Made by a program: the position numbers and the translations under genes. The notes under the pieces were generated by a model, which saw only the letters and a list, made by a program, of their open reading frames with translations, was not told where the DNA came from and ran no database searches. From a virus, in the IMG/VR virus record IMGVR_UViG_3300000575_000005, positions 1 to 36,906 of that record: a stretch of DNA of 36,906 nucleotides; one strand, 5' to 3'. This document shows positions 7,501-32,440 of the stretch, piece by piece (position 1 is the first letter of the stretch; each line of letters starts with the position of its first letter).

Positions 7501-10500
7501 ACGGCAAGCAGTTATTGGCAAACAAGGATTATGAATTCAACGACGAAGGATTCGCTGTTCTAAAATTTGACACAGAAGTTGGCGACGAAATTATAATTAG
7601 AGAGTTTGAAACCACTGATGCAAATTTTATTCCTGCGACCCCTACAAAGCTGGGAATTTACCCTGCTTTCGAGCCTGCAATTTTTGTGGACGATACTTAT
7701 GCTGAACCAAGAACCGTGATTCAGGGTCACGACGGTAGCATAACACTGGCGTTTGGCGATTTCAGAGACGACCTGCTACTAGAACTAGAAAAAAGAATCT
7801 ATAACAATATCAAGATAAAATATGACACACAGGTATTTGACATATTTGACTACCTGCCTGGTGATAACAGAAGCACCGGACTGTCTCGGTCGCAAATAGA
7901 CAACGTGCTATCAAGAGACTTTACGCAGTGGCTAAGTCTTGTAGACAGTGACTTTACAGATAATTCTGCATTCAATGATGCAAATCCGTTTACATACAAT
8001 CACAGTGAACTACAATCTAGATTCGACAAGCCTTTACAAGGACACTGGAGAAGTGTATATAAACAGATTTTTGATACAGATCGTCCTCACACACATCCTT
8101 GGGAAATGTTGGGATTTACAGAAAAGCCCGAATGGTGGGACGAAGAGTACGGCGAAGCACCGTACACAAGCAATAACTTGCTTTTATGGGAAGACCTCGA
8201 GCAGGGAATTGTTCGCGAACCGGGCAAGTTGCCTGAAACACGAGAAAAATTCAAAAGACCAAATATTACAGCTTATCTCCCAGTTGACGAAAATGGCAAT
8301 CTAGTTGCTCCGACTGCAACAAACTTAATCAAAACAATCAGATCAACCAGATTAGCAGCAGACTGGAAATTTGGCGACCATGCACCTGTAGAAACTGCAT
8401 GGAGACGTAGTTCTGAGTATCCTTTTGCACTCCTTGTTGCTCTCTTTTTAAATCAGCCAAACAGAGTAATTAGCGGTGCATTTGACAGGTCTAGACAATT
8501 TAGAAATCCTGCTGATCAGTTAATCTACGCTGCTCCCAACAATAGATTGAATCTGAGAGACCTTGTTTTACCTAACACCATAGACGAAAACGAAAGAAAA
8601 TTTACATCTGGTTTAGTAAACTATATCAGAGATTGGTTTGCTGCTGCAACAAACAGAGAGTTTGTGTCTTATAGAAACAGACTAACGGGTCTAGATGTGT
8701 CAATTGGCGGTAAGCTCGCAGGCTATGCAAGCAAAGACAAACTAAAATTTATATTGGATAGCAGATCTCCTCTAAGCGAAGGAAATGTGTTTGTTCCAGA
8801 CGAAAATTATCAAATTGCTTTTAACAAAAGCACACCAACTAGACTGTTGTATTATAGCGGAGTAATTGTTGAACGAGAGCCGCAAGGATTTATTATAAGA
8901 GGGTATAACGAAGAAGACCCTGTGTTTGTGTGGAACAGACCAATTGCCACAGAAGCAGACAGTGTGGTAAGAATAGGAGGTGTAACAGAACCTATCATTC
9001 AGTGGACTCCTCGACGCACGCTAACAAAAGAGTCTGTGGTTGAAAATCAAAACAGGTTTTTCAGAGTAACACAAACTCATACTACAACTGATTCTTTTGA
9101 TGCAGGTAAATTTGCTCCAATCGCAGAACCTGCTGTTCGCGGCGGCAGAGAAGCTAGGTTAAGAACAAGATTTAGAACACAAACAGAAGAACTTGCATAT
9201 AACTCTGTTTTCAAGTCAATACAAGAAGTTGTTGATTTTTTGTTAGGTTATGGACATTATCTAGAGAGCCAAGGATTTGTTTTCGATCACTTTGATTCTG
9301 ATTCAAGGCAAGTAGCTAACTGGACAACTTCAGCAAAAGAATTCTTGTTCTGGACGACTCAAAACTGGGCACAAGGTTCAGTTATTTCTCTGTCGCCCGG
9401 TGCATTCAAAATCACACTGGAAACTGATTTTGAGTCGGTCGACTCTGTGTTTGACAGTCTGTACGGGTACGGAATACTAAAAGTTGACGGAAGCCGTCTT
9501 GAGCCAGAATTTGTTAGTATTTCCAGAGAGGATGTGGGCAAGTTTGAAATACGACCAAAAATAACTGCAGATGGAATTTATGGTTTAAGAATACCGCTTG
9601 TTCAAAAAGAACACGTCGTTTTATTTGATGACAGAACCAGTTTTAATGACGTAATATATGACAAAGCAGCAGGTTATAGGCAAGAAAGAATCTCAGTATT
9701 AGGGTATAGAACAACAGACTGGGATGGAAGCATTAATATTCCTGGGTTTATTCTGGATCAAGTGGACATCAAAGACTGGGAACAGTGGCGAGATTATGAC
9801 ATAGGGGACGTTGTAAGGCACAAAGAATTTTTCTATGCAGCAGACACACGGGTCGTAGGCTCTGCAGAATTTCAAGAAGAAAGCTGGGCAAAACTTCCAG
9901 AGCGACCAGAATCTCGTCTGCTGCCCAACTTTGATTACAGATCTGCTCAATTTGCCGATTTCTATGACCTAGATAGTGATAACTTTGATGCTGAACAACA
10001 GAGATTTGCCCAGCATCTTATAGGCTATCAAAACAGAGATTATCTTGCCAATATAATTAATGATGATGTAAGCCAATACAAGTTTTATCAGGGATTTATC
10101 AGAGAAAAAGGCACACAAAACGCATTTACAAAACTGTTCGATGCTCTAAGTGCAGATGATAAAGAAAGCGTTGAGTTTTTTGAAGAATGGGCAATTAAGT
10201 CTGCACAATACGGAGCAAGCGAAGGCTTTGAAGAAGTAGAATATCCGCTAGATGAAACAAGATTTAGGAGATCTCCGCAGCCTGTTCGACTAGTCTCCAG
10301 AAGAGACCCAGAGGCAACTGACCTTGTTTATGAAATAATTCCCAGCGAAGTGGGCATACAGCCAAGAGAGTATAATCACAGACCGTTTCCAGAAACTCAG
10401 GTGCCAGAAAGTTTTGTTAAGGAAAGCGGCTATGTAAATCCAGATGATGTAGACTTTGTAGTAGACAGTTATAGAGATATAATCGGAATAGACATAAACG

Positions 10501-13500
10501 ATCTTTCTTTTGGAGATCATATCTGGGTAGGAAACGATAAAGAAACTTGGCAGGTTTATACAAATGTAAGAGCAAACACAGGAATTGTTGTATCCGAAAT
10601 TGTAGAAGCGGGCATATTTGTAGAATTAACAGATACAAAAACAGATTTTGAAGTAGGTGAAATAATTGCTGTTTATGATATAGGTGCACCATCTGGCATT
10701 TACGAAATTGTAAGAATAGAAAATAACAGGCTAATTCTTCTGGGAGATATCATAGAGCCTCCTGAACTGGGACCAGTTAACGGTACTATTTCTAGATTTG
10801 TTAAAACAAGATTTACCAGCATAGACAATGCTCAGAGCATTGTCACTGATATTGACAATGGAGTTAACAGATTATGGTTGGATCAAACAGATAAAAGCGT
10901 TCCTAAAGTCATTGATAGACAAAAACAGTTCTCTATATCAGACACATTGTTTAATCTTGGCTTAGATGAAGATCAAAATTATGGCACAGCAATTAGCACA
11001 AACAGCAGAAATACTGTTCTTGCTATAGGCAGTCCGGATGACGAATCGGGCAAAGTATACGTCTATACAAGAAGTACAGAAAACAATCCGTTTGAACTTT
11101 CTCAGGTAATCGAACCTACAGACGATCTTTCTGCAACACCAGAGAGATTCGGGGCCAGTGTTGCAGTTAGCGATACGGGAAGATTTATTGCTATAGGGTC
11201 CCCCAGTGCATCTAATGTAAAAACACAATTTAAAGAAGACTATCAAACTGATCTAGAATATTCTCAAGGCGATATTGTAGATTTTGAAGATAATCTGTGG
11301 AGAGCGAACACTGATATCCTGCCAGAAACAAACAGTGTGGAATTTCAATCTTTTGAATCAGTTCCCCAAGTTCTTGTTGATCTTGGATTAGATTTTGAAA
11401 ATGCACCGTCTTTCGACACTATCATTACAGGCAAGTTTCCTTTTACAAACGTTGAAACAGATCATATCCTGGTAAAAGCACCGATAGAGCAATACGACGG
11501 CTCGGAGCCCGGGTACAGCCTAAAATTTAAATGGAATGATGTGTCATATGCATACCAAGATCAAACTGATTTGTCGCCTGTAGAGCCGTTTGGAGGAGAC
11601 ATTCCTAGTATTGATACTGGATTTATAACAAACAATCTGCATGTAATCTCAGAAAAGATTGATTCCGTTTTATTTGTAGAAGCTGCAACAAATATTCCCA
11701 GCGTTGGGCAAATTGTAGAATCAAACACGGCAACAGGAGAAGTTGCATTTGTTTACAATGAACTTGCTGTTGCCACAATCTATATCAAAAATCAAAACGG
11801 CGACTTTACTGCCAGCGGGTCTCTTACTACAGAAATAGGCGAGTTTGTAGGAGAATATGAAACAGTAGCAGGTAGAGAAACTGCTGTGGGTGCCGACGAA
11901 GTATGGCAAGGATTATGGAAGATTGACCTTGGATTTAACATCAATGTAGATCAAATCAATTCAGACGAAGGCAGGGGTCTGGTTTATCTAGACGTAATTC
12001 CCACAGGCGAAACTGATCCTGAAAAATTCTATTTTAACATTTTAGATTTTGCAAGCAAAGCATTTTCCAGCTTCGACACCAGAAACAGCGAAATTGTCAC
12101 ACTTAGTTATTTCGGAAATCCTGGACCACAAGGCGTAGTAGGAGAATTCCTAAGCGACCTTTATGCCGTAAGATCGCCGTTAGAGTTAACTGATAATTTA
12201 TCGGTCGGAGATGAGATAGAATTTTTCTACAATCCCCTGCGTGACTTCGAAACAGACTCTTTTGTTGATCCTGAGTTAATTGGTCTGTCACTGGAAGATC
12301 TCAATCAAACACAAACAGTTCAAGACATTTGGGACGGATACATTGATTTTGATATTACTAGGAATTTGGGAGGTGTTCCTCTAGAACCAAAAGTTGGTAT
12401 TACAGTGCAGGATGTCACAAACCTCGGAACAGCTGAAGTAGTGTTCTATCAGAGGTTTGATACTGTAAGCGGCAGAATCTATGTGAAAAATGTCCAAGGC
12501 ACATGGGCAACAGGTGCTGACTTTGGCGAAAACAGAGAAATACAGTTTTTAGCAGACGGATCAGGAGATCCTGTGTACGACCCGGCAGCCGGGTTCAGGG
12601 TTTTTGGACAGATACAGTCAAGAAGCTTGGGATTTGAACCAGACGGCATAGGCCAGATGTTGGTGTTTACTAAGAACATTCAAATAAGTTTAGAAGACAA
12701 AGAACAAGACCGAATTATTGACGGAGAATATTGGTTTTATGAAACTGATATTGTGCAAGGCAGACCAAGACCTGCAAATATTCCTGCTCCTGAAAACGCA
12801 GATTGGCAACAAGTGTATAATGTACCTGCAGGACTTGCAGGAGAAGCTTCCACACTACAAAGCGAAGGATATTACACGATACTTCAAAGATCAGGAACGT
12901 ATCGCTGGACCAGAATTAATGACTACATTGTTCCGCAAAGAGATAATAATCAATTTTTAGGCAGTGATGTACAGTTTTCTGCGTTTAACGATTTTACAAG
13001 GCTGCATGTTCATGCCAGCGGAAACGCTACCCAGAATAATTTTGGTAAAATTTACACAATTAAAAATGGAACAGAAAACACCCAAGAGTTCGCTTGGGAC
13101 CTTGGCAAAGACAAGAGGTATCAAGGCGAATTTTCTATCACGAGAAATTATGTAGAAGGCGACGTTGTTTTTAAAGATGGAGAATTACTTGAAGCACAAA
13201 CCAACATTGTTGCAGGTATATTTGAGCCAGAAGAATGGCAGTCTCTTACAACGCCGATTGACTATACCGGCTTTATTCCTAATGATATAGGACTAGTACT
13301 TGACAATACAACTGTTATAGACGCACAAGGGCTTACAGAATTTGCAATAGACTTTGATGTTGACAATCGAGGAGAAGTTTTAGTAACAAGTGCAAGATTC
13401 AACAACAATACAACAAAAGTTTTTGTTTATCGAAATCTTAATGGATTGTATGTCAAGACACAAACAATAGAACAACCAGATCAAAATGAAAATTACGGTA

Positions 13501-16500
13501 TAAGCATCTCAATTAACGGCGATGGAAGATTTATTGCAGTAGGATCTCCTGATTTTGACGGCACAGAAATAAATCAGGGCAAAGTTTTTGTTTATAAACA
13601 AGTTGACGGAGAATTTGAATTACATCAAACACTGTTTGGTCCGGACAGAAAACGCAACGAACAGTTTGGTATAAGAGTAAGTTTCAGTGATGATTTTCTT
13701 GCAGTAACAAGTCGTAACGGTGGGTCAAGAATAGAAACAAGTTTTGACAATGGTGAAACTGTTTTTGATAGTGCAAGAACTAAATTTGTTGACGTTACGC
13801 CTAACACTGGTGTAGTAAGAATATTTGAATTATTTGATGATTCTCTCTTGTTCGGAGAAACAATTGATCTAGACGAAGAAGGCGTAAGATTCTTCGGCAG
13901 AAATCTGTATGCAAACAAAAATCATGTGTATGTAGGACTGCCTATGCTTAGTTTAGATTCAGGAAATCAAGGGCTGTTAGTAGACTATGCAAAAGAACGC
14001 GACTCAAAATTGTGGAGTACCTTAAGAACAGTCAAACCTACTGTGGATGTTAGCAAAATAAAACAGGCAGTTATTTACGATAGAACTACTCAACAGCTGA
14101 TAGACAATCTTGATTATATCGATCCGCTACAAGGCAAAATTGCCGGAGTGGCTGAACAAGAGATTTCCTATAAAACTCCTTATGACCCTGCTGTATATAC
14201 AATCGGCGAAGATGTAGAAGTAAATGCTACAAGAAGCTGGGGTAAAGACCAAGTAGGAGAAATTTGGTGGGATCTTTCAACTGCTAAATTTAGAAATCCC
14301 TATGTAGGAGGAACACTGTTTGCTACTAACAACTGGAATACTCTGTTCTCTGACTTTAACACAATTGATGTTTATGAATGGGTAGAATCCAATCTAACCC
14401 CTAATCAATGGGATACTATAAGCGAAACTGCGGATGGATTTAGTAGAGGAATCACAGGCCAGAGTAAACAGGGAAATTCTGCGTATGTAGAAAAAACAAT
14501 ATTTGACAAAACTACTAGATCTTTTGCTACTAGAAGATACTTTTGGGTGCGAAATAAACAAACTGTTCCAAACATTCCAGACAGAAATATCAGTGCACTT
14601 GCAATTTCGGAACTAATTAGAGACCCTGCAGGAGCCGGATATAGGTTTGTTGCTTTAATTAGTGCTACAGAATTTGCAATCTTTAATTCTAACAGGCTAA
14701 TACGTGATCAAGACGTAGCAGTAAAATTCCAATATTGGACGATCCAGGATCAGTCAATAAACATTCACAACGAGTATCAAATTTTAACAGACGGACTGTC
14801 AAGCAGCAGGCCAAAGACTGATGTAGAAAGAAAATGGTTCGACAGTCTTGTTGGTTTTGATGAGCAGCGTAGAGCAGTTCCTGCAAGAGAATTAACAGAA
14901 CAAGAAAAATACGGAGTTTTAAATTCTCCTAGACAGAGTTGGTTTGTTAACAGAATAGAAGCACTTAAACAGACTGTCGAAAGAATTAACAGAGTGTTTG
15001 CAAGGTCTCCTGTTGCAGACGAAAGAAATATAAGTCGCCTGAGAGAACAGGAAAACCCGCCCAGGTTTGCACTTGGCCTATATGACAGGACAGTAGAATC
15101 AAGATTAGACCTTGATTTTGTTGGTGTAGCAAGAGCAAGAACAGCGATACTGGAACCTGTGATTGAAGACGGTAGGCTAACAAGAGTAGATATACAGGAT
15201 TCTGGTCGAGGATATCTTGTAGCCCCGAGCACCGAAATTGTAGGTACAGGAACAGGTGCACAAATTTCTGTAGACATCAATAACAGAGGGGAAATTGTTG
15301 ATGTTTCTGTAGAAAAACAAGGCAGATTGTATACACAAGATACATCTATCACTGTGAGACCGTTTTCTGTTCTAGTACAAGCAGACGAAGCCATTGGCGG
15401 AAGATGGGCTATATTTGAAAGAGACGCACAAGCAGGCGAATGGATCCGATCAGCAAGCCAGGGATTTAATGTCAATCTTTACTGGAATTTTGTGGACTGG
15501 TATGCTGAAGGATTTTCAGAATTTACAAATATTGATTTTGTAGTGGATTTTTCGTTCGAATTAAGACAGATCAACGACAGATTGGGGGATATTGTTAAAG
15601 TTCAAAACATGTCAGACGGAGGATGGACTCTGCTGGAAAAGATCAATGACGAACAAACTGACAATTTTGTTATTAACTATAGAACTGTTGCAAGACAAGA
15701 CGGTACTATACAACTAAAGTCTTCCATATATGATGCCCAAGAAAATCTTGCAGGATTTGACATAACAAATTTCGACCTTGTGAAGTTTGATGGCCTGCCA
15801 AGCAGAGAAACCAGAATTATTCTAGAAGCATTGAGAGATGATATTTTTACAAGCGATCTTGCAGTTGAATACAATCGCTTGTTCTTTGCTAATCTTAGAT
15901 ATGTATTTTCTGAACAGAATTTTGTAGATTGGGCGTTTAAAACCAGTTTTATCAAGGCTCAACACAATGTAGGCGAATTAGACCAGAGAGTAACTTTCCA
16001 AAACGACAATCTGCCTAATTTTGAAGATTATGCAAGAGAGGTAAAGCCTTACAGTACAAACATAAGAGAATACCTATCAAATTACAACAGACTAGAACCT
16101 GCAGATACACAGATCACAGACTTTGATTTACCTGCCAAGTTTGATTCTACTACAAATAGAATAGAAGCCTTTGACACTGTGGTAAGAGATAATCAAATTT
16201 CTGTTTTGAATAATGTTATTGAAGATAGTCCAGAACTTGATTGGCAAAATGCTGCAGGATTTGAAATTGTGGAAATTCTGGTGTCGGATGCAGGATCAGG
16301 GTACACTTCTGCTCCTGTTATTAACATAATAGGAGGGGGAGGCTCTGGTGCGAAGGCTGTTGCTAGTGTAGGCGCCGGTGGAACCATTTCCAGCATCAAA
16401 ATCACACAGTCTGGTCAGGGATATTTGTCTGCTCCTAGTGTGCAAATAAATGGTTCTATTAGAGACGGCGGGTTGCCGGCAAAAGCAGTTGCCAGGATAG

Positions 16501-19500
16501 GCAATTCCCCCGTTAGATCTATGCACACTGTAGTCAAGTTTGACAGAACAAGCGGTGAGTTTGAGTTTGCTACTCTTAATACAGTACAGGAATTTGCAGG
16601 ATCTGGTTCAAGGTTGGTATTCGATCTTGAGTGGCCTGTGGATTTAAGAACAAACAAAACAATTGTTAGAATAAACGGAGTAGAATCACTTGTAGGTAGT
16701 TACACTCTGCAAAACAAACAAGATACCAGAAAAGGATATACCAGAACACAAGGAGTTATAGAGTTTATTACACCTCCTCCAGAAGGTGCACAAGTTGTTG
16801 TCGAATATCACAAAGACACCAGACTGTTGAACGCACAAGACAGAGCTAAATTTCTCCAGGGAGTTGACACACCTAGCCAGCTTGCTCAATTAATGGACGG
16901 TGTGGACTACGGCGGAGTAGAAGTAACAAGCTTCGGTTTTGAAGGAACAACGGGATGGGACACAGCAGGCTGGATAGATCAAGCTTATGATAATTTTGAT
17001 CAAAATTTTGAAGATGAAATTATACAACTAGATGGGTCTACTATAGAAATTGAACTTAGCAAGCCTCTAGATGTTGACGTAGTGTATAACATATATCGAG
17101 TAGCAAGAGACTCATTCGGAAACGTAGTTTCGAACACGCGAATGGATGATCCAAACTTTGGAACAGCAGAACAAACAAATCCAGACGCAACTACTGAAAG
17201 TATTATAGGTGATGGTTCGACTACTACAATATTCCTAGATGAACTAGACATTCCCACGGTGCCCCTAACACCTGAAGAACAAACCGTAATTATTATTGTT
17301 AGAAAAATCACAAGCGACGGCAGCTTTATTCCGGATCCAGAAGCATTTGACACTGTTCTCAAAGGAGGAAGCTTTGATAAACTTACTGCAACAGGACTGG
17401 AGTCTGCAGACATAACAGTAGATGGCGATGGATTTGTAACGCCTACAACCTCAAAGGGTCCTGAAGAAGTCGTACCGGGGCAGGTTTTAGATACACTAGA
17501 CCTAAAAGTATTCGAACGTCCAGATACAGGGGCTAGCAATATTACTTCTGTAAATTATAGAGGCGACGGGTCTCGAACCGTGTTCGATGTAGGCAGCGAC
17601 ATTGTAAACAAAAACGCAGTGTTTGTAAAAGTCGACAACGACATACTGTCATCAGATGATTATTTTATAAATGTATCTGCAAAAACAATCATTCTGGATC
17701 AGCCGCTGCTACAGGACAGTATACTGAATATTGTCAACCTTGGCTTCTCTGGCAAAAATATTTTCGATATCGACACATTTATTGCAGACGGAGAAACCGG
17801 TCAGTTTTTAACAAGAGCAAGATGGCAAGACGATTTACAAGCTGTTGTTACTGTAAACGGAGAAACAGTTCCGTTTGTTCTAGAAGAATCTGATTCAGGT
17901 TTTGAAATACAAGGAAATGTTGTAGTAACTGTTCCTGATATGCCACAAGTAGGGCATCAAGTAGCAATAATGATCCTGGAAGAAGGACCTATATCTGATA
18001 ACTTTAGCACTGTAAACATAGACAAGTTTATAGGAGACGGCTCCACTGATCAGTTTGTGCTAGAAAACAATATATTTGCACAACAACCTGCTCTAGTGCA
18101 TGTATTAGTTCAGGTAGGAAATAGAATTTTATCTGCAGGCTTCAATCAGGTATTTGATGTAGATGAACGCAGAGAATATCAACTGGATCTTACACAAGTT
18201 CCAGAAGGAACAGTTTCAAGTCAACAGCTAGAAGTTTATCTTAATGGCAGTCGCATAGAATTTTTGCAACAATGGAAATTCATAGGTTCTTCTGGTCTAG
18301 ACGATATAGACGATGCAAGCACAATTGTGCTCGAGCCAGGAGTAGGAAGTCCGAGCGACGAACTCAGAGTATATGTTATATCAGATGCAGAATACAGATT
18401 TGGAGAATTCGACGAAAACGGAAACTTTGTTCCTTCAAGAGGAGAGGATTCTACTTTGCCTATAATTCATCTGGATAACGCTCCTGAAGCAGGAGAAGAA
18501 GTCACAGTTTATTCTTTCAGCAATCATAACAGTCAGAGAATAGAAAGACAGAACAAAGATGTAATTGAAAGAACCGCACTGACTCCTGAAACTGCTGATT
18601 ATTTTGATTTTAGACAGCTACAGAATGGTTTGATAAAGTTGAAAAAACCAGCAGCTGGAACAGCATGGGTGTGGGCAATTGTAAATGGCGAACTACAATC
18701 ACCTAATATTGATTATACTCTTGTAGGAAATAGAAGCTTTGTAAAATTCGATAGAACATTCGGTGAGCAAGACACGGTAGAAATATTTCACTTCTCTGCT
18801 GCACCTGTTCAAAATGCATTTGGTTGGAGACAATTCAAAGACATCTTTAACAGAACTCACTACAAGAGGCTGAGAGATACTCAGGTTATAGATGAGGACC
18901 TGCATTTCTATGACACAGAAATTAAATTAGAAGATGCATCTTCTCTGCCTGATCCGGTGCCACAAAGCAATGTTCCGGGTGTGCTGTTTATAGAAGGCGA
19001 AAGAATAGAATACTTTAGAAAAGACGGCAATGTTCTTAAGCAGCTTAGAAGAGGCACGTTAGGGACAGGAATCAAGAGTGTTTATCTAGCAGGTACTGTA
19101 GTTATGGAACAGGGTGCAACCAACAATATTCCATACAAAGATGAAACAGAAACACAACAGTTTACAAGCGACGGCACTAGTGTTGTATCTGAACTGGGAT
19201 TTACCCTCGATGAAAATGTTGATCCTACAGATCAAGTTGAGGTATTCGGAGCAGGCAGACGTCTAAAGAAAGATCAGATATCTGTTTTCGATAGAGATTT
19301 GGCCTTGGATTCTCCCGAGGGAGATTTTGTACAGGATCCAGAATTCACAATTCAAGACGGAAACTTGTTTGTAACCGAACCTCTGCCAGAAAACACAAAC
19401 ATCACAGTTGTTCGCAAGCTAGGAACAGTTTGGCAAGAATCAGGTAAACCACTTAGAGAAAGCGAAACCAACATTGCAGAATTCCTTAGATCACAAACAA

Positions 19501-19517
19501 CAGATCTGCCACGATAA
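4578..19517 (+). CDS. Giant tail/baseplate structural protein (4,979 residues)
   Basis: One uninterrupted frame translates into a protein of roughly 550 kDa. The first 160 residues (HLPRYFRTQVNNKFLSSTFD, later EYYAWDPHIDWDKF and REYFWLPNGPDP) and the end (FNRTHYKRL, FIEGERIEYF, RRGTLGTG, NIPYKDET) resemble ends of very large virion proteins that I recall behind gp6 in marine T4-like phages. Between them are several modules: carbohydrate-binding-like W...GD.V...Y.A...W units (near residues 228, 1732, 2218 and 2845), FG-GAP/beta-propeller-like blades (about 2125-2215 and 2917-3120), two blocks of GxGY..AP glycine-rich repeats, and a C-terminal series of GDGS beta modules. No enzyme motif, signal peptide or membrane segment was found. 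By position it could replace T4 gp7 and other outer wedge proteins; that is inference. It may be a spoke or adhesin of the baseplate. Confidence 0.85.
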   Translation: MAFNDDQKEFPLPGGDNDRRRSAQHLPRYFRTQVNNKFLSSTFDQFIQPGQVEKISGFFGQRQAKARQVEDVYVPDVSKSRQDYQLEPAAVIKDDLDNLDFYQDYNDYINQINNLRGSTADHSLLNRQEYYAWDPHIDWDKFTNFREYFWLPNGPDPVPVAGQSIDIQSTYTVTSVDEQTNYAFVFTPDGLTRNPALTLYRGITYRFEIDSPGVPISIRKQRIVARPWQPQIAYRQAETVLFEGEIYIANQNHRSGFDFSQDANKWDRSTDINLAQEADNQSVEQGVIKLTLTPETPDILYYVADNDINASGEIRVFDIQEAAFIDVDKDILGKKTYRTGNGFDLSNGMKIYFQGTTSPQKYQTGNWYVEGVGDSIKLISENDLTVASAFVQDEFVEFDSEGFDRNPYSFSIGFPRNKDYITINRSATDGNLWSKYNRWIHRDVIEKAAEINQTGLFIDQNARATRPIIEFEAGLKLFDFGTKTKSSVDLVDNFTTDVFSIIEGSQGYNIDGIDLSQGMRILFTADTDVLVKNKIYQVEFITFKGQRQISLLEKADTDPLQDETVLCIGGKEFGGKVLYFTGDRWNLAQDKNSVNQPPLFDVFDCDGFSLADPEIYTSTDFEGTPIFSYRQGTGPSDPELGFALSYQNVQNVGDIVFDFNLSRDAVIFCPEGETTKSIGLGTGFLRNYRNRTEFSLENGWTRAVELSSQDVIFQVVARSATPLIDIDVYDNSARLDDLIVKVFVDNVLVFENVDYEIVKGNGDLAQIQFLTPVNRDSVIRIKTRSSAPKNSRGFYEIPHNLERNPNNEDLGKITLGEINDHVSSIVENFQGFRGEFPGRGNLRDAGNLAQFGKRVVQHSAPLAISLYHLTDEDANLVQAMRYAKLEYSKFKRNFIQTATDTAFDGPIDKHFEVVLERVLSNSKNSDPFYFSDMVPFGGAKVSRLTVRSAGERFFSLAEPFSLNSLSNKAVLLYLNGKQLLANKDYEFNDEGFAVLKFDTEVGDEIIIREFETTDANFIPATPTKLGIYPAFEPAIFVDDTYAEPRTVIQGHDGSITLAFGDFRDDLLLELEKRIYNNIKIKYDTQVFDIFDYLPGDNRSTGLSRSQIDNVLSRDFTQWLSLVDSDFTDNSAFNDANPFTYNHSELQSRFDKPLQGHWRSVYKQIFDTDRPHTHPWEMLGFTEKPEWWDEEYGEAPYTSNNLLLWEDLEQGIVREPGKLPETREKFKRPNITAYLPVDENGNLVAPTATNLIKTIRSTRLAADWKFGDHAPVETAWRRSSEYPFALLVALFLNQPNRVISGAFDRSRQFRNPADQLIYAAPNNRLNLRDLVLPNTIDENERKFTSGLVNYIRDWFAAATNREFVSYRNRLTGLDVSIGGKLAGYASKDKLKFILDSRSPLSEGNVFVPDENYQIAFNKSTPTRLLYYSGVIVEREPQGFIIRGYNEEDPVFVWNRPIATEADSVVRIGGVTEPIIQWTPRRTLTKESVVENQNRFFRVTQTHTTTDSFDAGKFAPIAEPAVRGGREARLRTRFRTQTEELAYNSVFKSIQEVVDFLLGYGHYLESQGFVFDHFDSDSRQVANWTTSAKEFLFWTTQNWAQGSVISLSPGAFKITLETDFESVDSVFDSLYGYGILKVDGSRLEPEFVSISREDVGKFEIRPKITADGIYGLRIPLVQKEHVVLFDDRTSFNDVIYDKAAGYRQERISVLGYRTTDWDGSINIPGFILDQVDIKDWEQWRDYDIGDVVRHKEFFYAADTRVVGSAEFQEESWAKLPERPESRLLPNFDYRSAQFADFYDLDSDNFDAEQQRFAQHLIGYQNRDYLANIINDDVSQYKFYQGFIREKGTQNAFTKLFDALSADDKESVEFFEEWAIKSAQYGASEGFEEVEYPLDETRFRRSPQPVRLVSRRDPEATDLVYEIIPSEVGIQPREYNHRPFPETQVPESFVKESGYVNPDDVDFVVDSYRDIIGIDINDLSFGDHIWVGNDKETWQVYTNVRANTGIVVSEIVEAGIFVELTDTKTDFEVGEIIAVYDIGAPSGIYEIVRIENNRLILLGDIIEPPELGPVNGTISRFVKTRFTSIDNAQSIVTDIDNGVNRLWLDQTDKSVPKVIDRQKQFSISDTLFNLGLDEDQNYGTAISTNSRNTVLAIGSPDDESGKVYVYTRSTENNPFELSQVIEPTDDLSATPERFGASVAVSDTGRFIAIGSPSASNVKTQFKEDYQTDLEYSQGDIVDFEDNLWRANTDILPETNSVEFQSFESVPQVLVDLGLDFENAPSFDTIITGKFPFTNVETDHILVKAPIEQYDGSEPGYSLKFKWNDVSYAYQDQTDLSPVEPFGGDIPSIDTGFITNNLHVISEKIDSVLFVEAATNIPSVGQIVESNTATGEVAFVYNELAVATIYIKNQNGDFTASGSLTTEIGEFVGEYETVAGRETAVGADEVWQGLWKIDLGFNINVDQINSDEGRGLVYLDVIPTGETDPEKFYFNILDFASKAFSSFDTRNSEIVTLSYFGNPGPQGVVGEFLSDLYAVRSPLELTDNLSVGDEIEFFYNPLRDFETDSFVDPELIGLSLEDLNQTQTVQDIWDGYIDFDITRNLGGVPLEPKVGITVQDVTNLGTAEVVFYQRFDTVSGRIYVKNVQGTWATGADFGENREIQFLADGSGDPVYDPAAGFRVFGQIQSRSLGFEPDGIGQMLVFTKNIQISLEDKEQDRIIDGEYWFYETDIVQGRPRPANIPAPENADWQQVYNVPAGLAGEASTLQSEGYYTILQRSGTYRWTRINDYIVPQRDNNQFLGSDVQFSAFNDFTRLHVHASGNATQNNFGKIYTIKNGTENTQEFAWDLGKDKRYQGEFSITRNYVEGDVVFKDGELLEAQTNIVAGIFEPEEWQSLTTPIDYTGFIPNDIGLVLDNTTVIDAQGLTEFAIDFDVDNRGEVLVTSARFNNNTTKVFVYRNLNGLYVKTQTIEQPDQNENYGISISINGDGRFIAVGSPDFDGTEINQGKVFVYKQVDGEFELHQTLFGPDRKRNEQFGIRVSFSDDFLAVTSRNGGSRIETSFDNGETVFDSARTKFVDVTPNTGVVRIFELFDDSLLFGETIDLDEEGVRFFGRNLYANKNHVYVGLPMLSLDSGNQGLLVDYAKERDSKLWSTLRTVKPTVDVSKIKQAVIYDRTTQQLIDNLDYIDPLQGKIAGVAEQEISYKTPYDPAVYTIGEDVEVNATRSWGKDQVGEIWWDLSTAKFRNPYVGGTLFATNNWNTLFSDFNTIDVYEWVESNLTPNQWDTISETADGFSRGITGQSKQGNSAYVEKTIFDKTTRSFATRRYFWVRNKQTVPNIPDRNISALAISELIRDPAGAGYRFVALISATEFAIFNSNRLIRDQDVAVKFQYWTIQDQSINIHNEYQILTDGLSSSRPKTDVERKWFDSLVGFDEQRRAVPARELTEQEKYGVLNSPRQSWFVNRIEALKQTVERINRVFARSPVADERNISRLREQENPPRFALGLYDRTVESRLDLDFVGVARARTAILEPVIEDGRLTRVDIQDSGRGYLVAPSTEIVGTGTGAQISVDINNRGEIVDVSVEKQGRLYTQDTSITVRPFSVLVQADEAIGGRWAIFERDAQAGEWIRSASQGFNVNLYWNFVDWYAEGFSEFTNIDFVVDFSFELRQINDRLGDIVKVQNMSDGGWTLLEKINDEQTDNFVINYRTVARQDGTIQLKSSIYDAQENLAGFDITNFDLVKFDGLPSRETRIILEALRDDIFTSDLAVEYNRLFFANLRYVFSEQNFVDWAFKTSFIKAQHNVGELDQRVTFQNDNLPNFEDYAREVKPYSTNIREYLSNYNRLEPADTQITDFDLPAKFDSTTNRIEAFDTVVRDNQISVLNNVIEDSPELDWQNAAGFEIVEILVSDAGSGYTSAPVINIIGGGGSGAKAVASVGAGGTISSIKITQSGQGYLSAPSVQINGSIRDGGLPAKAVARIGNSPVRSMHTVVKFDRTSGEFEFATLNTVQEFAGSGSRLVFDLEWPVDLRTNKTIVRINGVESLVGSYTLQNKQDTRKGYTRTQGVIEFITPPPEGAQVVVEYHKDTRLLNAQDRAKFLQGVDTPSQLAQLMDGVDYGGVEVTSFGFEGTTGWDTAGWIDQAYDNFDQNFEDEIIQLDGSTIEIELSKPLDVDVVYNIYRVARDSFGNVVSNTRMDDPNFGTAEQTNPDATTESIIGDGSTTTIFLDELDIPTVPLTPEEQTVIIIVRKITSDGSFIPDPEAFDTVLKGGSFDKLTATGLESADITVDGDGFVTPTTSKGPEEVVPGQVLDTLDLKVFERPDTGASNITSVNYRGDGSRTVFDVGSDIVNKNAVFVKVDNDILSSDDYFINVSAKTIILDQPLLQDSILNIVNLGFSGKNIFDIDTFIADGETGQFLTRARWQDDLQAVVTVNGETVPFVLEESDSGFEIQGNVVVTVPDMPQVGHQVAIMILEEGPISDNFSTVNIDKFIGDGSTDQFVLENNIFAQQPALVHVLVQVGNRILSAGFNQVFDVDERREYQLDLTQVPEGTVSSQQLEVYLNGSRIEFLQQWKFIGSSGLDDIDDASTIVLEPGVGSPSDELRVYVISDAEYRFGEFDENGNFVPSRGEDSTLPIIHLDNAPEAGEEVTVYSFSNHNSQRIERQNKDVIERTALTPETADYFDFRQLQNGLIKLKKPAAGTAWVWAIVNGELQSPNIDYTLVGNRSFVKFDRTFGEQDTVEIFHFSAAPVQNAFGWRQFKDIFNRTHYKRLRDTQVIDEDLHFYDTEIKLEDASSLPDPVPQSNVPGVLFIEGERIEYFRKDGNVLKQLRRGTLGTGIKSVYLAGTVVMEQGATNNIPYKDETETQQFTSDGTSVVSELGFTLDENVDPTDQVEVFGAGRRLKKDQISVFDRDLALDSPEGDFVQDPEFTIQDGNLFVTEPLPENTNITVVRKLGTVWQESGKPLRESETNIAEFLRSQTTDLPR
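5256..5384 (+). other. Carbohydrate-binding (CBM5/12-like) module 1 in the giant protein
   Basis: Residues about 227-269 read W-P-Q-x-A-Y, then V-L-F-E-G-E-I-Y-I-A, then a spacer with F and a closing W (W228, W266). This is the order of aromatic residues in small chitin-binding-like CBM5/12 folds. Assignment is by pattern only. Confidence 0.4.
9771..9899 (+). other. Carbohydrate-binding (CBM5/12-like) module 2 in the giant protein
   Basis: Residues about 1732-1774 contain WEQWRDYDIGDVVRHKEFFY followed by A, a G-containing spacer, F and W-A-K-L. It is the best match of the four to the pattern W..Y..GD.V....Y.A....G..F....W..L. Function (glycan contact) is inferred. Confidence 0.45.
10950..11220 (+). 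repeat. FG-GAP / beta-propeller-like blades, first set, in the giant protein
   Basis: Two to three repeats of the type Y/FG..ISxxxxxxVLAIGSP....G.VYVY, including RFGASVAVSDTGRFIAIGSP. This FG-GAP-like pattern marks integrin-type propeller blades. About 90 residues are covered, which is too few for a closed propeller alone. Confidence 0.55.
11229..11345 (+). other. Degenerate CBM5/12-like module 3 in the giant protein
   Basis: Residues about 2218-2256: YQTDLEYSQGDIVDFEDNLW then R-A-N-T. It keeps the GD.V and the aromatic strand but lacks the closing tryptophan. It directly follows the first set of propeller-like blades. Confidence 0.3.
13110..13245 (+). other. CBM5/12-like module 4 in the giant protein
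   Basis: Residues about 2845-2889: YQGEFSITRNYVEGDVVFKD then L-E-A-Q-T, a G-containing spacer, F and E-W-Q-S-L. It keeps GD.V, the spacer and the closing W. It directly precedes the second set of propeller-like blades. Confidence 0.35.
13326..13960 (+). repeat. FG-GAP / beta-propeller-like blades, second set, in the giant protein
   Basis: About four further blades: FAIDFDVDNRGEVLVTSARF, then YGISISINGDGRFIAVGSPD with KVFVYKQVDG, then QFGIRVSFSDDFLAV, then FFGRNLYANKNHVYVGLPM. They carry the same phrase structure as the set near 10950-11220. Confidence 0.55.
15130..15360 (+). repeat. Glycine-rich GxGY repeats, block 1, in the giant protein
   Basis: Residues about 3518-3594: VDIQDSGRGYLVAPSTEIVG followed by G-T-G-A-Q and a second half-repeat VDVSVEKQGRLYTQDTSITV. 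The pattern V.I...G.GY..AP...I.G.G.GA is a known phage/bacterial extracellular repeat type of unknown role. Confidence 0.5.
16260..16502 (+). repeat. Glycine-rich GxGY repeats, block 2, in the giant protein
   Basis: Residues about 3895-3975: ILVSDAGSGYTSAPVINIIG, a GGGGSGA linker, then ISSIKITQSGQGYLSAPSVQ and a third GGLPAKAVA segment. It is a clearer copy of the block near 15130-15360. Confidence 0.55.
16590..18270 (+). repeat. Series of GDGS beta-sandwich-like modules in the giant protein
   Basis: Modules start with (G/A)DG(S/E) followed by a hydrophobic strand: GSGSRLVFDL (near 16596), GDGSTTTIFL (17208), GDGSRTVFDV (17562), ADGETGQFLT (17787), GDGSTDQFVL (18036). Within each, V.VNG or similar and a strand ending in hydrophobic-V-x-hydrophobic follow. 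A related SDGTSVVSEL occurs near 19166. Spacing is irregular, about 75-120 residues for neighbouring units. Confidence 0.45.
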
Positions 19518-24125: not shown

Positions 24126-25595
24126 ATGGCATACACAATTAACAAATTCAACGGCACTGTCTTAACTGTAGTAGAAGATGGCACTATAGATAATAACACT
24201 GACCTTAAACTTGTAGGTAAAAATTTTGCAGGGTACGGTGAAATACAAAACGAAAATTTTGTATTTCTTCTTGAGAACTTTGCTAATCTTAACCCACCAC
24301 CTCGACCAATTGCAGGACAAGTATGGTTCGACTCCAGCGAGTCAAAGCTGAAATTTTATGATGGATCTAAATTTAGAACCACTGGCGGAGCAGAAGTAAG
24401 TGGATCAACTCCAGCCGGCCTAACTGTTGGCGACTTTTGGTGGGACACAGAAAACGAACAGCTTTTTGCTTTTAATGGCACAGAATTTATACTTGTTGGC
24501 CCTCAAGATGCTGGCGAAGGCGTCACTCAAATGCAGAGTACCACGCTAACAGGCACAGACGGTGTTAACCGTTCAGTAATTGTTTCTCTTCTCAATGACG
24601 AAGTTGTAACAGTGATATCTAGGGAAGCATTTGCAATACCACAAGGACAACTGCCAGGATTTGATACGATAAAGAAGGGTATTACGCTTAAAGATACTCT
24701 AGCAGCTTCCGGAGGTGTAACTAGTACAGATTTTATATATTGGGGCACAGCATCTAACGCACAAAAATTAAACGGCGTAGACGGATCTCAATTTGTTCAA
24801 GCAGGTGATGCCGACTTTGACAGTCTAGTGGAATTTGCAGACATTGGGTTTGCTGTAGGAGATTCCAACGATTTAAGGGTCTTTATCGAAAGTGACAATC
24901 AAGGTGTGATATCCAACGAAGTTGGCAGTGTTATTCGATTAAGAACAAAAAATCAGCAAGGTAACTCGGTAGAAAGTCTCAAAATACAACCAGGTGAATT
25001 ATTGCCAGGAGATATAGGCGGTTCAGTTGAAGCAGTGAATCTAGGCAGCGGGTCTGCACCGTTTCAGGCAGTATGGGCAGATAACTTTTTTGGTGTAAGT
25101 GAAAAAGCAAGTTCCTTGGTTGTTGGAGGAGAATCCAGATTCCCAAGCGTGCCTGCCAGTCCCAACACTGTTGCAGTGAGAGACAGTTCCGGAGATCTCA
25201 GGGCAAATCTATTTAGAGGAACAGCTCTTACCGCCAAGTACGCCGACCTTGCAGAAAAATATACTACAGAACATGAATTATCAGTAGGCACTGTAGTTTC
25301 TGTCTGTGATCATGAAGACCATGAAGTCTGTCCTGCAAAAGCAGATGCTGTTGCTATAGGTGTTGTTTCTCATAAACCTGCACTTATTATGAACGAAGGC
25401 AGTAAAGGACAAGCCATTGCTCTTAAAGGAAGAGTGCCTGTGAGGGTAAAAGGAAGTGTACAAAAAGGTGACCCGATATATGTTCACAGCAACGGAACAG
25501 CCTCTAATAAACCAAACGGTGAAATCATCGCAGTTGCACTAGAATCTATAAACTCAGATTCAGAAAACCTAATCGAATGCGTGTTAAAACTATAA
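24126..25595 (+). CDS. Tail fibre protein 3 (shared N-terminal domain, different C-terminus)
   Basis: 489 residues. The N-terminal domain again has GKNFAGYGEIQNENFVFLLE, GQVWFDSSESKLKFYDG, GDFWWDTENEQLFAFNG and LVGP, so the three fibres come from one ancestor. The middle holds IGFAVGDSNDLRVFIESDNQ and a Gly-rich linker. The C-terminal 110 residues start with AKYADLAEKYTTEHELSVGT and continue through a small beta domain (AVALESINSDSENLIECVLK at the end); the YADLAE+Y...GTVV phrase is one I recall from cyanophage fibre ends. No collar or S74 peptidase domain is visible. Expressed from its own late promoter, so its dosage could differ from that of fibres 1 and 2. Confidence 0.85.
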   Translation: MAYTINKFNGTVLTVVEDGTIDNNTDLKLVGKNFAGYGEIQNENFVFLLENFANLNPPPRPIAGQVWFDSSESKLKFYDGSKFRTTGGAEVSGSTPAGLTVGDFWWDTENEQLFAFNGTEFILVGPQDAGEGVTQMQSTTLTGTDGVNRSVIVSLLNDEVVTVISREAFAIPQGQLPGFDTIKKGITLKDTLAASGGVTSTDFIYWGTASNAQKLNGVDGSQFVQAGDADFDSLVEFADIGFAVGDSNDLRVFIESDNQGVISNEVGSVIRLRTKNQQGNSVESLKIQPGELLPGDIGGSVEAVNLGSGSAPFQAVWADNFFGVSEKASSLVVGGESRFPSVPASPNTVAVRDSSGDLRANLFRGTALTAKYADLAEKYTTEHELSVGTVVSVCDHEDHEVCPAKADAVAIGVVSHKPALIMNEGSKGQAIALKGRVPVRVKGSVQKGDPIYVHSNGTASNKPNGEIIAVALESINSDSENLIECVLKL

Positions 25596-25598
25596 ATA
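25591..25598 (+). promoter_or_regulatory. Exact consensus late promoter TATAAATA
   Basis: All eight bases match the T4 late consensus. The stop codon of fibre 3 (TAA, 25593-25595) lies inside it. The next ATG is 26 bases downstream with AGGA at 25613-25616. Confidence 0.75.
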
Positions 25599-25624: not shown

Positions 25625-26644
25625 ATGGCAGTAAATTCAGGAGATTCAATTACCGCAGCTCAGTTTAACGGACTGCAAAGCAGAATAAACCAAGTTCTAG
25701 GAACAGGAAGCGGCACATTCGGATATGGACAATCTGTATCAAGTTCTCAAGTTACTTCTCTTACTGACCCTGATATACCAGACGGCGACTCTGTCACTGC
25801 ACAACAATTTAATCAGCTAAGGTCTGATTTAAGAAAAGCATTTATACACCAAACTGGTACAGAAATTCCTGTAAATTCTTTCAGTGTGGGCGATATTATC
25901 GGAGCAGATGAATCCGGAACAGACATAGATTTTGTTAACGGTGATGCGGTATTTGTTAACGAAGATGCATCAAAAGGATTTAATGACCTTTTGAGCATTA
26001 TGAGTGGCTTAGAAGCTGGCAGATTTGATATTCATCCCAGTCAACAAGACGTACAAGTAAGAGCTGCAGACGAAAGAACATCAGACTGGAACGGTACTAT
26101 AGTAAGTGCATTTACTGTAAGTTTTTCAAATACAGATGAAAGAAGGTTCTTCTTTAATTCTGGAGGAGAAATTAGAATTTCTGGCACTAACGATCTAAAC
26201 ACATCAACAGGAGACAGCTTCGAACGAGACCAAGGATGGGATAATTTGTTGGAAAATCCTGGTGAGATAAGATTCGATTATAATTCTACAACAATAACTG
26301 GAAGTACCTCAGGTGTTTCGTTCCCAGACGGTGCAATAGGAAATGAGGACTTAACTGGTTCTTATCAGACAATTTTTAGAAAAGATGCCAGCGGCGGAGT
26401 ATACAGTGACTCATATTGGAAAATAGATGCACGGGAAGATTCTTCAACGCAACTTAGATTTAGAATTGAACTAGTAGACGCTGGACCAGAAAGCGACGAC
26501 GACGCAGGTGAACCTGGTTCTATAGATGGCGGTATAGTAGAACCTATAACTGCTGATCTTGAATTTGAATATGCAGCAAGACGTGCAAACGGCGAAGTAG
26601 TTGTGCCTTTTCCTGCATTCAGTGTGGTAAACACTTTCGAATAA
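25625..26644 (+). CDS. Conserved virion structural protein, probably fibre- or tail-associated
   Basis: 339 residues. The opening GDSITAAQFNGLQSRINQVL-GTGSGTFGYGQ and its partial repeat GDSVTAAQQ-like segment (residues 59-75, GDSVTAQQFNQLRSDLRKAF) form two helical units of the same design. The remainder is beta-rich with FFFNSGGEIRIS and GPESDDDAGEPGS, and ends in PFPAFSVVNTFE. I recall related proteins in marine phages near fibre genes, annotated only as structural or hypothetical. It has an exact late promoter, so late expression and a place in the virion are likely. The gene ends 8 bases before the -35 box of the following regulatory element and is the last gene of the structural block. 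Confidence 0.7.
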   Translation: MAVNSGDSITAAQFNGLQSRINQVLGTGSGTFGYGQSVSSSQVTSLTDPDIPDGDSVTAQQFNQLRSDLRKAFIHQTGTEIPVNSFSVGDIIGADESGTDIDFVNGDAVFVNEDASKGFNDLLSIMSGLEAGRFDIHPSQQDVQVRAADERTSDWNGTIVSAFTVSFSNTDERRFFFNSGGEIRISGTNDLNTSTGDSFERDQGWDNLLENPGEIRFDYNSTTITGSTSGVSFPDGAIGNEDLTGSYQTIFRKDASGGVYSDSYWKIDAREDSSTQLRFRIELVDAGPESDDDAGEPGSIDGGIVEPITADLEFEYAARRANGEVVVPFPAFSVVNTFE

Positions 26645-26652
26645 AAAATTTC

Positions 26653-26681
26653 TTGACAAGGAGCTCCAATTCTAGTAGTAT
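26653..26681 (+). promoter_or_regulatory. Near-consensus sigma70-type promoter
   Basis: TTGACA (26653-26658, perfect -35), a 17-base spacer, then TAGTAT (26676-26681, four of six for -10). Transcription should begin near 26688-26690, about 15 bases before the ATG at 26705. This is host-type rather than late-type, so the operon to the right may be expressed early. Confidence 0.65.
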
Positions 26682-26704
26682 GTAAACTAGATTGGAGTTT
26701 TTTT
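26662..26704 (+). terminator. Intrinsic terminator overlapping the promoter
   Basis: The arms CTCCAATTCTAG (26664-26675, one bulged T) and CTAGATTGGAG (26687-26697) pair over 11 base pairs around an 11-base loop, followed directly by seven T. The left arm fills most of the promoter spacer and the loop contains the -10 box. It would end transcripts coming from the structural block. Confidence 0.7.
26694..26697 (+). promoter_or_regulatory. Shine-Dalgarno GGAG in the terminator's 3' arm
   Basis: GGAG ends 7 bases before the ATG at 26705; the spacer is the T-tract. In a read-through transcript the site is base-paired in the hairpin; in a transcript started at the local promoter the 5' arm is missing, so it is free. 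Confidence 0.6.
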
Positions 26705-27061
26705 ATGGACGAAAGATTAAAAAAAGCACTTGATTTTTCAAACTATATGGTCACTCTCAATAACCAAAAGAGAGTAATAAAAAATCAATATCACGAAAGT
26801 TGTGTTTATTATTTTAACGGCGGACAGTTTACAGTTACAAAAGAACTAGTTACTTTTGTGAACATGCTGGTAGAGAAAGACAATACAAGTGACATAGTGC
26901 TAGTAGACGACAACGAAACGCCGATATTGATTCCAAACCTCGATGATTTTTTAAGCGACATAATTGACACATATTTTTCTGCAGCAAACACCTATTATGC
27001 AGAATATCAACAGTTAATAAAAAATAGATCAACTGCAAAATTAGTAGATTATGACGAGTAA
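26705..27061 (+). CDS. Conserved hypothetical phage protein, first gene of the modification operon
   Basis: 118 residues, mostly helical by appearance: LKKALDFSNYMVTLNNQKRV, then YYFNGGQFTVTKELVTFVNM, an acidic middle (VLVDDNETPILIPNLDDFLS) and SAANTYYAEYQQLIKNRSTA. I recall similar small proteins of unknown function in T4-like cyanophages. No catalytic motif, signal peptide or transmembrane segment is visible. It is transcribed from the promoter inside the preceding terminator and overlaps the first glycosyltransferase by 11 bases, so it heads that operon; translational coupling is likely. The pattern is that of a small helical partner or regulator, but no function can be given. Confidence 0.7.
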   Translation: MDERLKKALDFSNYMVTLNNQKRVIKNQYHESCVYYFNGGQFTVTKELVTFVNMLVEKDNTSDIVLVDDNETPILIPNLDDFLSDIIDTYFSAANTYYAEYQQLIKNRSTAKLVDYDE

Positions 27062-30219: not shown

Positions 30220-31583
30220 AAAAAATACAGAAGGTACTACAAAAAACAGATTCGGAAATATCTCCAACCTTTTGCATGGCAAAGTGGCATCATACTACAA
30301 TCTATCTTCAAACCGGAGAAACACATTCTTGTTATCATCCTGCTCCTCATCCTATTCCTCTTGAAGAATTAAGAGATAACCCTTCTGCACTTCACAATAC
30401 CAACCAAAAGAAACAAGAAAGAGAGCTAATGATACGCGGAAAACAACCGGAAGGCTGTTCTTATTGTTGGAATATAGAAGCAATGGGGAAAGATTATGTA
30501 TCCGACAGGCATTTAAGAACAGCATCTATATATAACGACGAAAGATTCGAAGAGATTAAACAAGGCGGCAGTAAATTTAATGTTAATCCAGAATATATCG
30601 AAATCTCGTTCTCAAATGAATGCAATTTTAAGTGCGGCTATTGTCATCCTAAGGCAAGTTCTCGATATTGGAAAGAAATAGACGACCACGGGCCCTATGA
30701 TGTGTCTTCAGACCACAGGCAGGACATAGATTGGTTTAAAATTTATCAAAAAGAAGAGGAAAACCCTTATGTAGAAGCCTGGTGGCGATGGTGGCCTGAA
30801 GTATCTAAGACACTTAACATTCTCAGAATAACAGGTGGAGAACCTCTCATGCATAAAAGCACATGGGACTTGTTTGATAGGCTAGAGGAAGATCCTAAGC
30901 CGCATATTCAAATAGAACTTAATTCTAATCTAGGAGTTAAGCCTAAACTGGTCGAAAAATTAGTTGAAAGGGTGCTTTTTTTAAAATCAATCCGTGCAAT
31001 AAAAGGCTTTAAGCTGTATACATCGATAGATACATGGACAAAAAGAGCAGAATATGCTAGGCACGGGCTTAATTTAGACCTCTGGGAGAAAAATTTACAG
31101 TATTATCTAACGAAAACACATCTTCCTGTTGTTTTTATGATTACTTTCAACATTTTTGGCGTTACAAGCTTCGATACCCTGTTACAAAAAATTTTAGAGT
31201 GGCGGAAAATATACAATTCTGATAAAAACGAAATACATTGGCAGAGAATTCGATTCGACACTCCGCATTTGAAAGAACCTGCTATTTTTGACATGAATAT
31301 TCTGCCAAAAAAAGAATTTATGCCATACATGCACTCGCATCTGGAGTTTATAAAATCTAACTTAGATAATCATGACAGAACAAAGTTCAGTGATTTGGAA
31401 TATCAAAAATTTAAAAGAGTGGTGGACTACATGGCAACCACAAACTACGACGAAGATAAGCTGTTAGTAGCAAGGAAAAATTTTGTGGCATGGTTTACCG
31501 AACATGACAGGAGAAGAAATACCAGTCTGCTAGAAACATTCCCTGAAATGAAAGATTTTTGGGAGCTGTGTGCTAGCCTTTAA
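30207..31583 (+). CDS. Radical SAM protein with N-terminal twitch-like cysteines
   Basis: 458 residues. The radical SAM core is clear: EISFSNECNFKCGYCHPKAS gives CxxxCxxC (C139, C143, C146) for the 4Fe-4S cluster that cleaves S-adenosylmethionine, and ITGGEPLMH near residue 210 is the SAM-binding GGE motif. Before it, C23 (FCMAKW), C42 (SCYHP), C84 and C87 (GCSYCWNIE) are placed like a twitch-type auxiliary cluster domain, but at the N-terminus, as in phage proteins called twitch domain-containing radical SAM. Such enzymes often modify peptides, sugars or nucleotides; the substrate here is unknown. Last gene of the operon; its stop overlaps the convergent gene by 4 bases (TTAA). Confidence 0.85.
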   Translation: MDELEKIQKVLQKTDSEISPTFCMAKWHHTTIYLQTGETHSCYHPAPHPIPLEELRDNPSALHNTNQKKQERELMIRGKQPEGCSYCWNIEAMGKDYVSDRHLRTASIYNDERFEEIKQGGSKFNVNPEYIEISFSNECNFKCGYCHPKASSRYWKEIDDHGPYDVSSDHRQDIDWFKIYQKEEENPYVEAWWRWWPEVSKTLNILRITGGEPLMHKSTWDLFDRLEEDPKPHIQIELNSNLGVKPKLVEKLVERVLFLKSIRAIKGFKLYTSIDTWTKRAEYARHGLNLDLWEKNLQYYLTKTHLPVVFMITFNIFGVTSFDTLLQKILEWRKIYNSDKNEIHWQRIRFDTPHLKEPAIFDMNILPKKEFMPYMHSHLEFIKSNLDNHDRTKFSDLEYQKFKRVVDYMATTNYDEDKLLVARKNFVAWFTEHDRRRNTSLLETFPEMKDFWELCASL

Positions 31584-32440
31584 TTCCAGATCTCACAAGG
31601 TATAGGCCTTCCTTTTGTCAACTTGAACTTTTGACGAAGATCGTTTTCTACAGTTTGAGGAAAGTCATGTAATCCGTGACTTTTTTTAGAGTTTCTATAG
31701 CAATTTCGTATATATGAAACCCAGTTTTCTTGTAATTTTTTTATTGAAGCTATGGTTTTACTGGAAAATTCATAGTCTAGCACAGCCTGCAAATATTCTA
31801 GATGTTCTAAAGGTGTTGGATGCCCGTCAGAATAATTTTTATGTACAGTTGACCAATCTTTTTGCCATTTGGAGTCAATATTTCCCTGCCATAATACATC
31901 ATAAAAGCTAGGAGCAATTTTAGATAAGTTTTTATTGTATAAGTTGCTAATTTTGTATACTAGATTCTGTTGTTCAGACGATGTCTCTTCCCACTGATTA
32001 ATTTGATTTACAATATTACACATTGACAAAAAATTAAAATTAGTGCAATCTAAATAATTAGCCGTTAAGTCAATCAATGCGAAGTCTCTTAATGCAAAAT
32101 GTATGTCGTTTGCCCATCTTTTAACGAATTTTGCATCGTACTCGTTTTGTGAGTAAATATTTCCCGGAGTTACCCAACCTTGTTTTTCTGTATATCTATC
32201 TTCTCTTGATATGTTTGTCCAGCATACAACAACTAAATCGTTTTTATCAAAACTAAAATAATTATTTGCCTGTGTAATTTGATTGCTAATGAAATAATTC
32301 CCAGCCCCGCTCCTTCCAAAGTTATAAAATTCACAATTTAGCTCATATGCTAAAATGTTTGCCCAAGTTGCCCATTTATAATCTGTGAAAGAACAGCCGA
32401 ACGTAAACAATCTTCTAGGTCTGTTAATAGCTAGTTTCAT
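31580..32440 (-). CDS. SGNH/GDSL hydrolase-like protein
   Basis: 286 residues on the minus strand. Near the N-terminus LFTFGCSFTDY has the block I serine (S17); GRSGAGN (residues 42-48) fits the oxyanion glycine block, NDLVVVCWTNISREDRY (about 67-83) resembles the block III asparagine region, and YSDGHPTPLEHL (203-214) gives the block V aspartate and histidine (D205, H207). The fold therefore looks like an SGNH esterase or acetyltransferase/deacetylase of sugars. No signal peptide is present, so it acts in the cytoplasm or on the particle. It is the second gene of the minus-strand pair, overlapping the upstream GT10-like gene by 4 bases (32437-32440). Confidence 0.65.
   Translation of the reverse strand: MKLAINRPRRLFTFGCSFTDYKWATWANILAYELNCEFYNFGRSGAGNYFISNQITQANNYFSFDKNDLVVVCWTNISREDRYTEKQGWVTPGNIYSQNEYDAKFVKRWANDIHFALRDFALIDLTANYLDCTNFNFLSMCNIVNQINQWEETSSEQQNLVYKISNLYNKNLSKIAPSFYDVLWQGNIDSKWQKDWSTVHKNYSDGHPTPLEHLEYLQAVLDYEFSSKTIASIKKLQENWVSYIRNCYRNSKKSHGLHDFPQTVENDLRQKFKLTKGRPIPCEIWN

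Follow-up and report, generated by a model that had tools for sequence, protein, structure and literature searches.

A promoter nested in a hairpin that pairs the next gene's ribosome binding site, at the end of a virion gene block in a T4-like phage fragment

Gene order and anatomy of the site

The stretch of DNA analysed here (the window) is a 36.9 kb virus fragment from IMG/VR (IMGVR_UViG_3300000575_000005), and its source is of the T4-like large myovirus type. Positions 1-26644 carry baseplate-hub, wedge and fibre-type genes on the + strand, and the wedge protein is nearest to those of jumbo phages such as Atu_ph07, SCTP-2 and PA5oct, at 35-38% identity. A single open reading frame of 4,979 aa fills positions 4578-19517 in the tail region. 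The last gene of the fibre/baseplate block (25625..26644, + strand; stop codon at 26642-26644, read from the sequence) encodes a 339-aa protein, and its transcripts would enter the hairpin described below. This protein has no family match and no significant match in fold searches; it is called virion-type here from its position after baseplate/fibre-type genes, its synteny (a homologue lies at the equivalent place in relatives) and its company. A T4-type late promoter element, TATAAATA (25591..25598, + strand), identified as a motif that is enriched near gene starts, lies 34 nt upstream of this gene.

Downstream of 26644 follow co-oriented genes for proteins of 118, 296, 279, 188 and 302 aa and for a 458-aa radical-SAM protein, and then convergent genes. 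The end of this + strand block overlaps a convergent gene on the - strand (31580-32440) by 4 bases (31580-31583), and no terminator-like site separates the two at this junction.

The 118-aa gene (26705..27061, + strand) is the first of the putatively insulated block, and alignment was possible with relatives of its product, of which 355 were found among viral contigs. Using BLAST against cultured phages, no matches were obtained for the region or for the 118-, 296- and 279-aa proteins, and no sequence profile or family matches the 118-aa protein. In Foldseek, its high-confidence predicted structure (pLDDT 91) is similar to phage DUF4376 proteins (best E ~1e-3, TM ~0.4-0.65); the top fold match is an uncharacterised protein (E 2e-5). 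Prefoldin-like matches in the PDB were not significant and were discarded. DUF4376 proteins are often encoded beside tail-fibre genes.

Between the two genes, on the + strand, lies a compact site. A -35 element TTGACA (26653..26658), conserved among relatives, is separated by a 17 bp spacer from the -10 element TAGTAT (26676..26681). The spacer contains the 5' arm of a hairpin, CTCCAATTCTAG (26664..26675), the 11-nt loop (26676-26686) opens with the six bases of the -10 element, and the 3' arm, CTAGATTGGAG, occupies 26687..26697. The stem has 11 pairs and one bulged T. Inside the 3' arm, GGAG (26694..26697) is the Shine-Dalgarno sequence (SD) of the 118-aa gene, and a T7 tract (26698..26704), directly followed by the ATG at 26705, has the form of a terminator tail and is at the same time the spacer between SD and ATG. 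The sequence-only reading had described a TTGACA-17-TAGTAT promoter with its -10 in the loop of an 11-bp hairpin, a T7 tail and GGAG in the 3' arm, and this was confirmed base for base. The RNA of 26653-26715 folds at -18.8 kcal/mol (z -3.9), and none of 200 dinucleotide shuffles folds as well. Judged from the -10 spacing, transcription is predicted to start at about 26688, at the 5' end of the 3' arm, so that the local RNA would lack the 5' arm.

Promoter conservation and co-varying pairing in relatives

The window promoter matches the consensus at 10 of 12 positions, and such sites are not rare: the scanned part of the window holds 63 promoter-like sites, with 57 expected, and counting promoter scores within the window was therefore not accepted as evidence by itself. 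Since a lone match of this kind proves little, relatives were compared, with 80 of the 355 relatives of the 118-aa protein kept per scan. Of 103 distinct upstream regions of homologues, 80 have a promoter scoring at least 10/12, the spacer is 17 bp in 79 of these 80, and the background rate is 1.9% (108 of 5,749 80-nt windows at this score). In relatives, the conserved promoter ends 17-29 nt upstream of the ATG. This conservation makes the promoter credible, and the TAGTAT of the window is weaker than the -10 of most relatives. Other strong promoters in the contigs of relatives are for the most part located within genes or between genes of the same orientation, and hairpins are rare there.

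In many relatives, the 17 bp spacer can pair with the leader, the Shine-Dalgarno sequence included, although the arm sequences themselves differ. For example, the window pairs CTCCAAT with ATTGGAG, relative L006 pairs CCCCTAAT with ATTAGGGG, L045 pairs CTCCTAT with ATAGGAG, and L076 pairs ACTCCTATGACT with AGTCATAGGAGT. Because the register of the helix shifts between lineages, co-variation was assessed not by columns of one alignment but by a partner-swap test, in which spacers were re-paired with the leaders of other relatives in 20,000 permutations. The mean duplex energy of 59 clusters is -7.25 kcal/mol, compared with -4.97 after permutation (sd 0.24), and the corresponding values are -10.07 and -6.13 for 26 clusters and -7.01 and -4.94 for 41 clusters; in all three tests, none of the 20,000 permutations reached the observed mean. 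The sequence-only reading had named a lack of covariation in relatives among the outcomes that would refute it, and spacer and leader do co-vary. The 118-aa gene has a leader that strongly hides the Shine-Dalgarno sequence at 22 of 89 starts, compared with 27 of 725 starts of other genes. The hairpin exists only in a subset of relatives and is missing from many, and Rfam covariance models gave no match up to E = 1. At L049:4592-4651, the same gene has a strong terminator-like hairpin burying the Shine-Dalgarno sequence (CCCTCCTTATT..AATAAGGAGGG TTTTT) without a recognisable TTGACA.

As a control, the same contigs contain a second conserved sigma-70-type promoter, before a gp55-like late sigma gene (phrog_12791, E 3e-75). 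This gene is divergent from its neighbour, so no read-through arrives from that neighbour. At its promoters, in 49 clusters, no excess of spacer/leader pairing was detected (-3.58 versus -3.56), thus promoters of this type in these phages do not as a rule show the pairing. The late-sigma promoter of these phages is itself very conserved (L264-L266, L275, L279-L282, L284-L363), with spacers such as AAATTAAGTATGTATAT just upstream of TATAAT, and the constancy of this spacer suggests extra contacts or a putative regulator.

These comparisons bear on the idea that the inverted repeat acts as DNA, as the operator of a regulator repressing the promoter, rather than as an RNA structure. The repeat does bracket the -10 element, which is a usual place for an operator. 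However, the arm sequences change between relatives while their complementarity is kept, including through G-T pairs (CTCC/GGGG in L010) and bulges, and for this reason a DNA operator is very improbable. The late-sigma promoter of these phages, moreover, has no such repeat, and the repeat at the 118-aa gene varies with the class of promoter on the gene upstream, as described below.

Ribosome-site access, termination and the upstream promoter class

The accessibility of the ribosome binding site was computed for both transcript forms, with the local RNA modelled from 7 nt past the -10 element and 12, 30 or 50 nt of native coding sequence included. Freeing GGAG costs 10.6-12.6 kcal/mol in the read-through RNA versus 0.6-2.5 kcal/mol in the local RNA; in one longer model of the local RNA (26688-26760), GGAG pairs with coding sequence and the cost is 5.7. 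Among 20 relatives with strong hairpins, the cost is 7.8 for read-through and about 1.2 for local RNA. The earlier proposal that only locally started transcripts would be open to ribosomes thus finds computed support, GGAG being fully paired in the read-through form and much cheaper to free in the local form. The upstream stop codon lies 19 nt upstream of the 5' arm, a distance that should be out of reach of a terminating ribosome and so leave the hairpin able to fold.

One rival holds that the site is merely the intrinsic terminator of the late operon placed beside the next promoter, with the SD pairing as a by-product of saving space. In the whole window, this is the sole perfect 7-bp stem (at least 3 G/C) that leads into six or more consecutive T, and shuffled windows contain 0.125 on average; a terminator scan passed over the hairpin because it admits loops of at most 8 nt. 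T runs of at least 5 also follow 5 of 20 strong hairpins versus 1 of 44 weak ones (p 0.01), with a U-tract present in the window, L006/L010, L011, L067/L068 and L076 and missing in most others. Yet three quarters of the strong hairpins, without a T run, still bury the Shine-Dalgarno sequence, and it is this pairing, not the tail, that recurs, which leaves the terminator-only explanation unlikely. Since only 5 of the 20 strong hairpins carry a U-tract, termination is not the common denominator. Silencing of translation is, as far as these sequences indicate, the shared property, and termination would be an addition in some lineages. The sequence-only reading had proposed that read-through RNA would both terminate and hide its ribosome site. 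The hiding is supported by computed folding and co-variation, and the stem with its T7 is present in the window; the tail as a companion of the hairpin does not extend to most relatives.

A further rival is an element of mRNA processing or stability, either a 3' end protecting the late mRNA or a nuclease site freeing the downstream message. The distance of the stem from the stop codon agrees with it, and 3' hairpins often stabilise the upstream mRNA. However, for RNase III a stem of 11 bp is short, and such an element leaves unexplained both the promoter in the loop and the pairing of the SD in tailless relatives; we regard it as improbable, more so than a bare terminator.

The preferred reading, insulation against late read-through, concerns the transcription that arrives from upstream. 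Counted in these loci relative to gene starts, TATAAATA is found 38 times in the interval -50..-20 and 4 times in -120..-70, and its concentration 29-49 nt upstream of the starts matches the expectation for gp55-type late promoters. In relatives, the preceding gene has either TATAAATA, or a sigma-70-type promoter, or neither clearly. Spacer/leader duplexes of -9 kcal/mol or stronger were found in 15 of 24 relatives with TATAAATA before the preceding gene, 2 of 20 where the promoter there is of sigma-70 type (Fisher p 5e-4 between these two classes) and 6 of 32 of the rest, the median duplex energies being -11.7, -4.0 and -4.9, respectively. One of the two strong cases in the sigma-70 class, L046, has CATAAATA and may be misclassed. 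The association persisted when relatedness was taken into account by phylogenetic regression along the 118-aa protein tree (slope -3.55, p 0.01, n=71); it is a post hoc result from 71 sequences and motif-based classes. There are exceptions on both sides: L149 and L065 have TATAAATA but no hairpin, and L079 and L145 have a hairpin without TATAAATA.

This association is what an insulator against late read-through would predict. The suggestion that the site separates late-structural from early-type expression also gains support from TATAAATA at 25591 and from the sigma-70-type promoter on the gp55-like gene.

Two other arrangements were seen before the upstream gene in relatives. In L129, L130, L131 and L134 (403-aa gene, start near L134:3380), the arrangement is mirrored: a hairpin burying the virion gene's Shine-Dalgarno sequence (leader MFE ~-15) has the late-type CATAAATA in its loop, like T4 gene e. 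In L151, L162, L167, L180, L181 and L182, the virion gene is preceded by TATAATAAATA, in which a sigma-70 -10 element overlaps the late motif, apparently forming one promoter for both early and late use.

Proposed mechanism and known parallels

In our interpretation, the site probably insulates in one direction, shielding a gene block under separate control from the late virion operon before it. Late RNAs starting at TATAAATA (25591) or farther upstream would carry the 5' arm, and beyond the stop at 26644 they would fold the hairpin, whose stem and T7 would act as an intrinsic terminator. Read-through RNA that escapes would have the GGAG of the 118-aa gene paired and so remain untranslated. 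The promoter in the loop, of host sigma-70 type, would start RNA past the 5' arm, and this short-leader RNA would be unable to fold the hairpin and would be translated. The purpose may be to keep the 118-aa block off, or at low dosage, while late virion mRNA is abundant. If the 118-aa protein is a fibre chaperone, late silencing would set dosage rather than only timing.

The principle is known from other systems. In T4 genes e, soc, 49 and I-TevI, the ribosome site is hidden in RNAs that start upstream, and e and I-TevI also have promoters within the stretch encoding the 5' arm, which give a short translatable RNA (PMC3014915). The site in the window shares with e and I-TevI the SD paired in the long RNA, as computed here, and a promoter within the structure, whose predicted start would give a local RNA without the 5' arm. 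However, in T4 e and I-TevI it is early RNA that is kept silent, and translated RNA comes from the late promoter TATAAATA, whereas in the window the incoming RNA would be late and the local promoter is of the TTGACA-17-TATAAT type. The T4 structures are, moreover, described without a terminator tail, and the 118-aa gene has no match in cultured phages. In Bacillus subtilis sigG, read-through RNA from PspoIIG was proposed to be kept from translation by a large hairpin that RNA from PsigG cannot form (PMC5942855); that case is an unrelated cellular sporulation gene with 20+ pairs, other sigma factors and no described terminator tail. The site also resembles intrinsic terminators that overlap a following promoter, having a G+C-containing stem and a U-tract at an operon end. 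Unlike these, its stem holds the SD of the next gene, its U-tract is the spacer of that gene, and most relatives lack the tail and keep the SD pairing.

No identical late-to-early arrangement was found in the open-access literature. What is new relative to T4 e, I-TevI and B. subtilis sigG is the reversed, late-to-early polarity, the use of the promoter spacer as the 5' arm, and the fused terminator. The site offers a compact design for an insulated promoter that is directly testable with reporters in E. coli, and a sequence signature for locating borders of expression phase in uncultured phages. The relatives form a natural experiment, in which the hairpin tracks the promoter type of the upstream gene.

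Dense phage genomes must separate neighbouring operons within a few dozen bases, and here one short stretch would serve as promoter, terminator and read-through filter. More tentatively, and with somewhat more doubt than confidence, we propose that uncultured T4-like large phages may generally use such self-cancelling promoters at late-to-early borders: the promoter spacer would encode an anti-Shine-Dalgarno arm, read-through RNA would be untranslatable and in some lineages terminated, and the element would be gained, lost and rewritten with the class of the upstream promoter.
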